The notes beneath the pieces were generated by a model. That model was not told the DNA's origin and searched no databases. It saw nothing but the letters and a program-made list of their open reading frames with translations. Positions 16,887 through 33,112 of a stretch of DNA of 33,112 nucleotides are shown piece after piece; positions within the stretch are counted from its first letter, which is position 1; every line of letters starts with the position of its first letter. The translations under genes were made by a program, and so were the position numbers. The DNA is taken from contig JBAXGN010000080.1 of the NCBI GenBank assembly GCA_037139415.1, positions 1 to 33,112 of the forward strand, given 5' to 3'. The stretch comes from Verrucomicrobiota bacterium. Its GTDB lineage: Bacteria > Verrucomicrobiota > Verrucomicrobiia > Limisphaerales > Fontisphaeraceae.

Positions 16887-16937
16887 CCCCTGGAGTTTCG
16901 TCCATCACGTTTAAGATTGAATTTACCTTTACCTGCC

Positions 16938-19253
16938 ATGACCGACCCCGCCATTACTCCCGAACTGGTGCAGAAGCACGGATTAACCCCCGACGAATTC
17001 GCGCAGATCAAACAGATCCTTGGCCGCGAGCCCTCGTACACCGAGTTGGGCATCTTCTCGGTGATGTGGAGCGAGCATTGCTCCTATAAGAACACCCGCC
17101 CGCTGCTCAAGACGTTCCCCACCAAGTCGCCCAAGATCCTCGTGGGCGCCGGCGAGGAGAACGCCGGCATTATTGATATCGGCGACGGTCTGTGCATCGC
17201 CTTCAAGATGGAATCGCACAACCATCCCAGCGCGGTCGAGCCCTTCCAGGGCGCGGCCACGGGCGTCGGCGGCATTGTGCGCGATATTTTCACCATGGGC
17301 GCGCGGCCGGTCTGCGCGATTGATTCGTTGCGGTTCGGTGAACTGTCCTCCCCGGAAGTGCGCCGCCTGTTCAGCGGCATCGTCAGTGGCATCGCCCATT
17401 ACGGCAATTGCTTTGGTATCCCGACGATTGCCGGCGAGGTGTATTTCGACAAATCGTACGAAGGTAATCCGCTCGTCAACGTGTTCTGCCTGGGCGTGCT
17501 GCGCCACAGCCAGATTGCGCGCGGCGCCGCCAAGGGCGTCGGCAACCCGGTCTTTTACGTCGGCCCGGCCACCGGGCGCGATGGCCTGGCGGGCGCGGCC
17601 TTCGCGTCGCAGGATCTCACCGAGGCTTCCGCTGAGAAACAGCGCGGCGCGGTGCAGGTGGGCGATCCCTTCATGGAAAAGCTGGTCGCGGAAGCCTGTT
17701 TGGAACTGCTGGCCACCGATGCTGTGGCGGGCATCCAGGACATGGGCGCGGCGGGCTTGACCTGTTCCACCTGTGAGACGGCGGCTCGCGCCGGCACGGG
17801 CATCGAGATCGAGCTGGCCAAGGTGCCGCAGCGCGCGCCCAACATGAGCAGTTACGAGATCATGCTCAGCGAATCGCAGGAGCGCATGTTGATCATCGTC
17901 AAGAAGGGCCGCGAAGCTGAAGTTCAGCGCATTTTCGACAAATGGGATTTGCCGTGGGCCCAGATCGGCACGGTCACGGATACCGGCCGCATGGTGGTCC
18001 GCTGGAACGGCAACGTGGTGGCCGATGTCCCTGCCGCCAAGCTGGCCAATGACGCGCCGATTTACCATCGGGAATCCTGCGAGCCCGCTTATTTCAAGGA
18101 AGTCCGGGCTTTCACGTTGGATATGGTGGCGGATACCACCGATCCCTTGGCGAACCTCACCGCGCTGATGGGCTGGCCGACGATCGCTTCCAAGAATTGG
18201 GTTTATCGCCAGTACGACCACATGGTGCGCGACGGCTCCGTCGTGTGCCCGGGCTCGGACGCCGCCGTGATCCGCATCAAGGCCGATTCCCTGCCGGTGC
18301 TCCCGGCGGATTCCCCGCTGAACAACGTGCCGGTGCCGGAGAAGTTCGTGGCGATGACCACCGATTGCAACGCGGGCTACGTGTACCTCGATCCGTACGA
18401 GGGCGGCAAGATCGCCGTCGCCGAGGCGGCCCGCAACCTGGCCTGCTCCGGCGCAACGCCGCTGGGCGTGACGGATAACCTGAATTTCGGCAACCCGCAC
18501 AACCCCGAGCTGTTCTATCAGCTCAAGGAATCCGTGCGCGGCCTGGGCGAAGCCTGCCGATTCCTCGACACCCCGATCACCGGCGGCAATTGCAGTCTCT
18601 ACAACCAGAGCCCGGCGGGTCCGATTGACCCCACGCCGACGGTCTGCATGGTCGGGCTGATTGAGAAGCCCGAGCACATCACCACCCAGTATTTCAAGGA
18701 CAAGGGCGACGCGATCGTGCTGCTGGGCGACGCGGTGGACTTCTCCGATGCGCTCCAGGGTTTGGGCGGCTCGGCCTTCCTGCAAGTTGTTCACGGCAAA
18801 AAGACGGGCACGCCGCCGAAGTGCGAACTTGCCAAGGAAAAGATGCTGCACGACGCCTTGCGCACGCTGATCAAGGCGGGGCTCGTGAAGAGCGCACATG
18901 ATTGCAGTGAGGGCGGCTTGGCTGTGGCCCTGGCGGAGAGCTGCGTCTCGCAGCAGACCGCGCGGCACACCCCGCGCCTGATCGGCGCGCAGATTAATTT
19001 CATCAAGCTCAAGGGCGTGCGGTTGGACGCGCTGCTGTTCGGGGAAACCCAGAGCCGCGCCGTCATCACCACCACGGCGGAGAATGCGGCCAAGGTCATC
19101 GAGCAGGCCAAGCAGCTTGGCGTCCCGGCGGTGCTCATCGGCAAAGTGGGCGGCCAAGCCCTCAAGATCAAGACCGGCAAAGGCACCTTCACCTGGTCCC
19201 TGGAGAAGCTCCACGACCGCTGGTGGAACAGCATCGCCCAGGCGATGCGCTAA
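16938..19253 (+). CDS. purL: Phosphoribosylformylglycinamidine synthase subunit PurL
   Basis: A 771-residue small-type PurL, the ATP-dependent synthase subunit. Early residues carry [20 protein letters not shown], then [37 protein letters not shown], the nucleotide and substrate-binding region of the PurM/PurL fold. The second half repeats the fold with [26 protein letters not shown] and GGNCSLYNQ, and ends with [18 protein letters not shown] 16938 gives the expected N-terminus; TTG 16917 would add seven residues. It is longer than many small PurLs (about 720-760) but much shorter than the fused form, which fits the separate purS and purQ just upstream. A long antisense open frame here is a composition effect. 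Confidence 0.96.
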
Positions 19254-19262
19254 GCGGCCGTT

Positions 19263-19315
19263 GTTTTGGAGTACGGCGGCAAGGTGGGGTAAAGAGGCCG
19301 CGACGCCGTTTTGGA
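19263..19315. repeat. Short element flanked by 8-bp direct repeats
   Basis: Just after purL, GTTTTGGA occurs at 19263-19270 and again at 19308-19315, enclosing a GC-rich 37-bp core with GGCGGCAAGG and GGCCGCGACGCCG. Length, direct repeats and intergenic position fit a small dispersed genomic element. I have a vague, unverified impression that similar stretches recur between genes in related genomes. No coding potential is seen in 19254-19444. Confidence 0.3.
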
Positions 19316-19444
19316 TCAGCGCGCTCAAACCAGCCCCGCCACCATTGCGGCGCAAACCTCCACGCGAGCTGCCCACCGGAAAATCCAAGGAAACGGTCCC
19401 GGTAGGCCCGAAAACGGGTGGTTGGGCACTTTGTTCCGAGCGGC

Positions 19445-19667
19445 GGAACACGTGTTCCGTCGGATGGGACAAAGTTCCGGGGCATGGAACATGTGTTCCG
19501 TCGCATGAGACACGTGTCTCACCGGTTGGGACACGTGTTCCGCCGGATGGAACACGCTCCCGGCCCATGAAACACGTGTCTCGGCCCATGGAACACGTGT
19601 CTCGGCCCATGGAACACGTGTCTCGGCCCATGGAACACGTGTCTCGGCCCATGGAACACGTGTCTCA
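19445..19667. repeat. Array of eleven 21-bp palindrome-containing repeats
   Basis: Units begin at 19445, 19466, 19486, 19507, 19528, 19549, 19569, 19590, 19611, 19632 and 19653. The period is 21 bp, with two steps of 20 bp. Each unit has a 14-bp palindrome-like core, GGAACACGTGTTCC at 19445-19458 being perfect, followed by a 7-bp link. Later cores read GGAACACGTGTCTC or GAGACACGTGTCTC, and the link in the last five is GGCCCAT. The second unit (AAAG instead of ACGTG) and the sixth (centre shortened) are degraded. The last four units are nearly identical while the first six vary, which suggests growth by recent tandem duplication at the right end. It is not a CRISPR because the links are too short and not unique. 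The function is unknown. Confidence 0.9.
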
Positions 19668-19668
19668 T

Positions 19669-19892
19669 GGGGTGGAAAGTGGTTTTGACCGTTTGGCTCG
19701 CCCGGAATAGGTTCCCAGCCATGCGCTCACTGGAATTACGATGAGTCGTTACGCTGCCGCCTTGGGGTTGGCAGCTCGGGACGGAACCGGGAGAAGAAAT
19801 AAACGGGTGGTCCGGCCTCGGATTGCGGTTTAAATCACAACCTCCCCTGAAAACTTGCGCTGCACCTTAAAAGTGGGCTAGATTAGTTGGCG
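19669..19892. other. Intergenic stretch between the repeat array and the small gene
   Basis: A degenerate twelfth repeat may begin at 19669 (GGGGTGGAAAG). The rest holds no supported gene. TTGCGC (19855-19860), 18 nt and TAGATT (19879-19884) could be a weak promoter for the following small gene. No ribosome binding site of note is visible. Confidence 0.3.
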
Positions 19893-20093
19893 ATGACACC
19901 TGAAGCGGCATTGGCAAAACAGATTGAACGATATCGGCAAATGACGGGGGAAGAGCGCCTCGACATTGCATTGCGTTTGCACGAACTGGCATGCGATCTT
20001 GCCCGGGAAGGTATCCGTCGTCAAAAGCCCGATGCCACCCCGGAGGAAGTCGATGGATTTTTGATTAAACGCCTGCAATTGGTACGGCAATGA
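19893..20093 (+). CDS. Small helical protein of a nucleotidyltransferase-linked two-gene module
   Basis: A 66-residue helical protein with the pattern KQIERYRQMTGEERLDIALRLHELACDLAREGIRRQKPDATPEEVDGFLIKRL (written without gaps it spans residues about 9-61). Small proteins with Arg-Tyr-x-x-Met-(T/S)-x-x-x-Arg-(L/A) ... Leu-His-(E/D) ... REGIR recur directly upstream of AbiEii-like/minimal nucleotidyltransferase genes in Planctomycetes, Cyanobacteria and Verrucomicrobia, from memory. ATG 19893 is chosen over TTG 19887. Its stop overlaps the next start by 4 nt (ATGA), typical of such pairs. The partner here is broken, so this gene may be a leftover. Confidence 0.6.
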   Translation: MTPEAALAKQIERYRQMTGEERLDIALRLHELACDLAREGIRRQKPDATPEEVDGFLIKRLQLVRQ

Positions 20094-33044: not shown

Positions 33045-33112
33045 TCAGGATTGACTAAGGTTTTGTAAATATAATTGTGTAAATGTTTTTTTGTTTTGTT
33101 TTTTGTTGTTTT
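33045..33112. other. AT-rich right edge
   Basis: The last 68 bp are strongly A/T-biased, with T-runs and TTTTGTTTTTTGTTGTTTT-type low complexity. It could hold the promoter of the leftward zinc-ribbon gene (for example TATATT on the minus strand) or mark a contig end. No gene is visible. Confidence 0.4.

Follow-up and report, generated by a model that had tools for sequence, protein, structure and literature searches.

Intergenic arrays of dyad-symmetric units recur with a 21-bp period in a Verrucomicrobiota genome

The window analyzed here, a 33,112-nucleotide stretch of a Verrucomicrobiota genome (contig C80), carries a tandem array downstream of purL that our analysis confirmed to be real and to be one of many intergenic arrays in the host whose mirror-symmetric units follow an exact 21-base rhythm. 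Comparison of these arrays suggests that the spacing, rather than the sequence, is what is kept in them. We tentatively propose (probability, about 0.4) that the arrays are helically phased palindromic satellites whose register would be held either by a putative symmetric protein or by DNA shape.

RESULTS

An 11-unit array lies between purL and an antitoxin-like ORF

Eleven units were found at 19445 to 19666 on the forward strand, each consisting of a degenerate dyad, GRRACACGTGTYYC, and a link of ~7 bp. The units start at 19445, 19466, 19486, 19507, 19528, 19549, 19569, 19590, 19611, 19632, and 19653, with spacings, in order, of 21, 20, 21, 21, 21, 20, 21, 21, 21, and 21 bp. The first-pass annotation, which had been made from the sequence alone, was thus right about the coordinates, the unit number, and the period (eight spacings of 21 bp and two of 20 bp). 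The repetition exceeds chance, as the TRF score reached up to 244 and a two-unit motif at the array spacing (≤2 mismatches) matched six times in the window but in none of 100 dinucleotide shuffles.

The core ACACGTGT, around which every unit had been thought to be built, is present but does not occur in all units: in two, the core is 13 bp long and has a different center, and one unit reads ACATGTGT. Similarly, 19445 is the correct start of the units, but the feature itself reaches further left, to a flank of ~37 bp (19408 to 19444, forward strand) that aligns across all three genomic copies described below and whose sequence in them is CCGAAAAC.GG.GGTTGGGCACTTTG.TCCGAGCGGC. Units 1 to 6 (19445 to 19568, forward strand) are diverged, and units 7 to 11 (19569 to 19666, forward strand) are nearly identical. 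The last four units, already singled out as alike, are in fact identical to one another, each having the form GGAAC...GTCTC with two mismatched dyad pairs.

The array is outside any called gene. purL (16917 to 19253, forward strand; AIRS, AIRS_C, and FGAR-AT_linker domains) stops ~190 bp before it, and an Rv0078B-related antitoxin-like ORF (19893 to 20093, forward strand) lies downstream. The closest relatives of this PurL come from Verrucomicrobia and Limisphaerales MAGs, the top group being 71 to 79% identical in the best segment, and on this basis the host was provisionally placed among the Verrucomicrobiota near Limisphaerales. A coding reading of the array is broken by the two 20-bp units, which disrupt the frame. 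An antisense open frame of 889 codons (16983 to 19652, reverse strand) spans both the array and purL; codon usage together with the 21-bp period probably accounts for it, rather than a gene.

At the right end of the window (33059 to 33085, reverse strand) lies an A-rich sequence, CATTTACACAATTATATTTACAAAACC, that follows CAAAA-type repeats. The identical sequence is found at 17 host contig ends, this one included, and resembles the terminus of a high-copy element at which the assembly broke. It adjoins a 21-bp array at five of these ends (C45, C58, C64, C237, and C274).

The array is part of a block with three dispersed copies

The C80 array belongs to a block of ~270 to 380 bp that is present in three dispersed copies in the host genome, the others being at C49:1820-2200 and, on the opposite strand, at C122:12116-12418. 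The left flank and units 1 to 7, including the six diverged units, are common to the three copies in the same order, and the copies differ by 22 to 26 substitutions and 0 to 1 gaps over ~195 columns (~88% identity). Given that the units within an array share on average only 0.52 (C80) or 0.65 (C49) of their bases, the array is older than the copying of the block. The number of homogenized right-hand units varies among these paralogous copies of a single genome, which bears out the earlier suggestion that the array expanded at this end. The similarity of C80 to C49 and C122 ends with the start of the right flank (19667 to 19677, forward strand); rightward of this shared flank, C49 and C122 add about four 20- to 21-bp steps of the AAAAACGGGGGTTTTGG type, while C80 diverges.

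The C49 copy is flanked by genes for a PQQ_2 protein and a DUF4190-like protein and the C122 copy by genes for an addiction-module component and another DUF4190-like protein (both DUF4190-like matches are below the Pfam cut-off). The block had no match in the 96 other genomes searched or among the plasmids and phages searched, and one two-unit pattern had no exact match among viral contigs. Neither a plasmid nor a phage origin of the block was supported.

The first-pass annotation had also proposed that changes in the flanks of the core compensate one another and so keep the dyad. This proposal was not borne out. Perfectly palindromic cores were found in 2 of the 11 units (unit 1, GGAACACGTGTTCC; unit 4, GAGACACGTGTCTC), and when six orthologous units were compared pairwise among the three copies, 18 dyad pairs had a change on a single side and no pair had changes on both sides, in a count that is confined to 14-bp cores (two 13-bp units and the extra homogenized units being left out) and that enters shared changes more than once. 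Transitions made up 16 of the 18 base differences in the orthologous cores. A degenerate GRRACAY in both orientations is a better description of the half-site of the family than a base-paired stem. Dyad-symmetric sites on one helix face were found in this family, with the symmetry being borderline in C80 (P = 0.053, permutation of unit columns) and significant in C49 (P = 0.002).

Arrays with a 21-bp period and mostly unrelated sequences recur across the host genome

The host genome comprises 7.9 Mb in 378 contigs, of which 16% (1.3 Mb) was sampled as 65 stretches of 20 kb each. These were the first 20 kb of every contig from C1 to C66 other than C49 and C64 and, in addition, a further stretch from C1. 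Arrays were defined by 84-bp windows that were ≥60% identical to the sequence 8 to 89 bp onward (the search was also run at 55%). Nineteen strong tandem arrays were found outside genes: 18 that passed and one on C45, which had been counted as half inside a gene because a single weak gene call covers the array and was added as the nineteenth. The period was 21 bp or a multiple of it in 16 of the 19, located on C21 (62/42/21), C22, C31, C33 (84), C36, C40, C41, C43, C45, C48, C52 (twice), C58 (twice), C60, and C66, and the remaining periods were 41 (C26), 33 (L236), and 18 bp (L237). Nine arrays within genes had leading periods of 18, 33, 36, 42, 66, or 69 bp. Five of the 16 (C33, C45, C52a, C58a, and C60) are at contig starts, where repeats break assembly and which the sampling favors; extrapolation from 11 to 16 arrays per 1.3 Mb gives roughly 70 to 100 arrays in the whole genome.

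The unit sequences of these arrays are mostly unrelated (CAAACCATGGTTTG, TTCCTGAAAGGAA, CCTAGG, TCCGTNACGGA, GTTCCGAAC, CCCCGGACCGGGG, and GGGTAATTTACCC, among others). A rotation- and strand-aware comparison, in which the 12 closest pairs were tested, revealed a few pairs of similar unit profiles, such as C41/C58b and C36/C64, and within most arrays only ~40 to 70% of the bases are common to the units. Among the arrays, higher-order repetition at 42, 63, and 84 bp was observed, as were runs of identical units at one end. The core of the C80 array is itself rare in the genome, being found in the three homologous arrays and in one unrelated array on C64. The genome-wide recurrence that the first-pass annotation had put forward as a check therefore holds for the 21-bp period and the dyad-symmetric units, which mostly recur with unrelated sequence, but not for the core.

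Dyad symmetry was significant (P < 0.05, permutation of unit columns, with C80 standing for its family) in 11 of 18 host array families, compared with 1 of 10 control arrays, and was not significant in the other 7 families. The combined Fisher P value of ~1e-14 is approximate, since the borders of the arrays were drawn manually and since C41 is related to C58b.

Three further observations were made during this survey. The array at C64:54-165 (L189), which is unrelated to the C80 family, has a 21-bp period and a CACGTG core, GCACACGTGTATTTGGCAAAA (dyad P = 0.0025). The array on C26 (L256:11317-11656) contains eight nearly identical 41-bp units, in each of which two dyads, 20 and 21 bp apart, can be seen by eye. 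Lastly, 558 kb of host sequence contained 18 short 7-bp tandem arrays, many of the CGGAATG/CATTCCG type (e.g., L254:15742-15797 and L247:10565-10597).

The arrays have a regular 21-bp register and show no coding constraint or orientation bias

Across 20 host arrays, 194 of 200 unit steps were 21 bp and 6 were 20 bp, with none of 19, 22, or 23 bp, as fitted by a path model that allows steps of 19 to 23 bp and penalizes those other than 21 bp, hence favoring 21. This model gave one 20-bp step in C80, relative to two by direct reading, and the C122 row was poorly registered. Since the copies of the C80 family likewise differ by few gaps relative to substitutions, the rarity of indels is no proof of selection.

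With a period divisible by 3 and open frames in many arrays, a protein-coding repeat was considered but rejected, as pN/pS ratios were 0.67 to 1.33 in all frames of six host arrays other than the C80 array. Eleven array sets were analyzed in all; the other five span 0.38 to 2.31, with the lowest value coming from a Spartobacterial array. A codon-trained gene caller left 20 of 21 arrays free of genes, the exception being the weak call over C45. The orientation of neighboring genes was assessed for a set of 21 arrays, 17 of them sampled (the 41-bp array included) and 4 found by sequence. Among the 15 with both neighbors called, 5 lie between divergent, 6 between co-directional, and 4 between convergent genes, and no bias was detected relative to the intergenic background (shares of 0.32, 0.54, and 0.15, respectively).

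The AT profiles of 18 host arrays carried a larger share of their power at 10.5 bp than did random intergenic 21-mers (0.23 versus 0.12; P = 0.0002), and this was the strongest AT harmonic in 7 of the 18. The 10.5-bp signal was absent from the C80 family, as represented by C49, and no constant AT phase relative to the dyad was found in the host arrays. The third harmonic (7 bp) was somewhat raised (P = 0.08). A derivation of the 21-bp unit from three 7-mers was unsupported, as 7-bp arrays are common, 14-bp arrays rare, and 28-bp arrays absent in the host sample.

Similar arrays are patchily distributed in other genomes

The distribution of arrays among other genomes is patchy. Genome G247 contains an array of 25 CANNTG-type cores (L175:1647-2180) in which 23 of 24 spacings are 21 bp (dyad P = 0.0005); the remaining step is 20 bp, and AT-rich and GC-rich links tend to alternate. 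Twelve units were found in a Spartobacteria MAG (L026; dyad P = 0.0125) and 15 in G250 (dyad P = 0.27), while periods of 41/42/83 bp were seen in arrays of G007 and a period of 42 bp in a weaker array of G004. No array was recognized outside genes in 420 kb of G002, which is in the same family as the host. G002 does carry a 2.8-kb array with a period of ~72 to 78 bp (C1, ~1700725-1703555; L283:725-3555) that is possibly a CRISPR array.

When three CACGTG motifs at 21-bp spacing were searched for (≤2 mismatches), at least 50 of 320 genomes matched, but the reversed control pattern also matched many genomes, and only the long G247 and G250 arrays were taken on. Arrays in G240 and G253 were excluded as either uniform or likely coding repeats, and those in G269, G016, G120, and G074 resembled 7-bp repeats by eye. 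An intergenic 21-bp array of the AGTCGGAATAAAC type was observed in Pseudoneobacillus rhizosphaerae (L051:6622-6740; dyad P = 0.23), indicating that two-turn periods are not confined to the Verrucomicrobiota.

DISCUSSION

Our preferred reading is that the host carries a class of tandem arrays of ~3 to 20 mostly dyad-symmetric units, two turns of B-DNA (21 bp) apart, with each array having its own sequence. The units would multiply through local duplication, as in satellites, and the 21-bp register would persist because a candidate dimeric protein, of the architectural or nucleoid type and with little sequence specificity, acts on the same face of every unit; alternatively, DNA shape arising from the phased symmetry may hold the register. 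Both protein binding and selection on the spacing are inferred from the pattern of the arrays. This reading is favored by the prevalence of the 21-bp period and steps in arrays of unrelated sequence, the dyad symmetry, the 10.5-bp AT signal, the pN/pS ratios, and the regular spacing in G247. Weighing against it are the weaker dyads of C80 and the missing 10.5-bp signal of its family, the inconstant AT phase, the seven families lacking significant symmetry, and the 420 kb of G002 in which no array was recognized.

The strongest rival, which we consider a serious possibility though short of an even chance, is that the arrays are neutral satellites with a built-in ruler, in which hairpin-prone palindromes would provoke slippage or template switching with a two-turn duplication step and no function for the host. 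The higher-order repeats and identical end runs are typical of satellite turnover, and the lack of context bias, the patchy distribution, and the copy-dependent unit number likewise speak for this reading. Slippage set by polymerase contact length is reported to have been proposed earlier for heptanucleotide repeats (PMC4679880). However, this reading does not itself account for a step of 21 in unrelated sequences, nor for a register that survives when about half of the bases differ between units. The first-pass annotation had linked a neutral satellite to a rare core, asymmetric changes, absence or free variation in close strains, and a lack of protein binding. Here, the core is rare, the changes are asymmetric, and 96 genomes lack the array, all of which point to a satellite, but the period shared by most intergenic arrays is left unexplained by a plain neutral one. 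Phased and neutral satellites remain close as explanations, with the rarity of indels favoring the former without being decisive.

We consider it improbable that the arrays function in RNA, with each unit forming a short stem-loop. The palindromic units would allow such folding, and some arrays, such as C22, show unequal numbers of G-T and A-C mismatches. Covariation was mostly absent, with excess pairing at P < 0.03 in 3 of 36 tests (C22, C40, and C41), and pairing in G247 exceeded expectation around the links (P = 0.0005). However, unit classes of 42 or 84 bp occur in the arrays with positive tests and can by themselves mimic covariation, and the G247 cores do not covary (core, P = 0.92; arms, P = 0.63). 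The complete lack of two-sided changes among the 18 altered dyad pairs of the C80 family also argues against a stem, as does the absence of any Rfam match at the gathering threshold in the window and 17 other array-bearing loci.

Slightly less credible still is that each array is an operator for its own sequence-specific dimeric regulator, controlling a neighboring gene. Dyad sites on one face of the helix, and the two-orientation half-site of the C80 family, are what such a regulator would use, but the same block stands beside unrelated genes and promoter sides are not preferred. Since the arrays have unrelated sequences, one sequence-specific operator is excluded as their shared explanation. 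An operator for purL in particular is unlikely, given the unrelated neighbors of the block and the same rhythm with many other cores. Least likely of all, arrays spread by or attracting transposable elements would fit the copying of the C80 family as a block and the A-rich sequence adjoining arrays at contig ends, but C45, C58, and C64 had prompted the search for that sequence (leaving 2 independent cases among the 14 other ends), no target duplication was seen by eye around the three blocks, and the eight Y1 transposase matches in the host are not unusual among 20 genomes.

The arrays do not fit the repeat classes that we considered, in agreement with the first-pass annotation, and no such class was found in the open-access literature searched (most subscription papers and all preprints lay outside it). 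They resemble CRISPR arrays in their regular spacing and partly palindromic unit, but links of ~7 bp are far too short for unique spacers of ~30 bp and are themselves repeated. Plasmid iterons and heptad centromere arrays are phased repeats of about two turns on which protein is bound side by side. In contrast to these, the C80 family consists of three chromosomal copies beside unrelated genes; a plasmid iteron is unsupported given these neighbors (purL and the PQQ_2, DUF4190-like, and addiction-module genes) and the lack of a plasmid match, and dozens of arrays are not explained by origin-specific proteins. The verrucomicrobial LexA box is TGTTC-N4-GAACA, whereas TGTTC and GAACA are ~9 bases apart by eye in the array, not 4, and a LexA operator is unsupported. 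VNTR or satellite DNA is similar in its head-to-tail units, higher-order repeats, homogenized end, and variable unit number but differs in that many host arrays of mostly unrelated sequence share a 21-bp period and dyads.

Two published classes are also similar in part. The heptanucleotide arrays of Beggiatoaceae, e.g., of TAACTGA, are short, intergenic, and numerous in a genome and have a preferred unit length, but they are direct repeats of one 7-mer family, whereas the host units are 21 bp long, dyad symmetric, and specific to each array (PMC4679880). REP/BIME elements and GTAG palindromes are intergenic, sometimes clustered, and reported from Verrucomicrobia, but the host arrays have no common consensus, GTAG tag, or long stem-loop and instead have a fixed 21-bp head-to-tail spacing (PMC3733652). 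REP/GTAG elements with a RAYT were also rejected in view of the three copies of the C80 family, the different cores of the other arrays, and the number of Y1 matches, which is not raised.

Returning to the phased satellites, we advance as a speculation, and as a rather unlikely one, that some Verrucomicrobiota carry ~70 to 100 arrays per genome in which the sequence is free and the two-turn rhythm and dyads are kept, the arrays acting as an architecture signal for a predicted symmetric, sequence-tolerant protein that would line one face of the DNA. Such a bacterial signal would be somewhat like the phased signals of nucleosomes. If a period of 21 bp and dyads are indeed maintained independently of sequence, they would point to a physical ruler, which may be either a DNA-wrapping or -bridging protein or a mechanism of two-turn duplication. 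To our knowledge, neither such a ruler protein nor such a duplication mechanism has been described in bacteria, and the many unrelated arrays within one genome make the question of the ruler directly testable.
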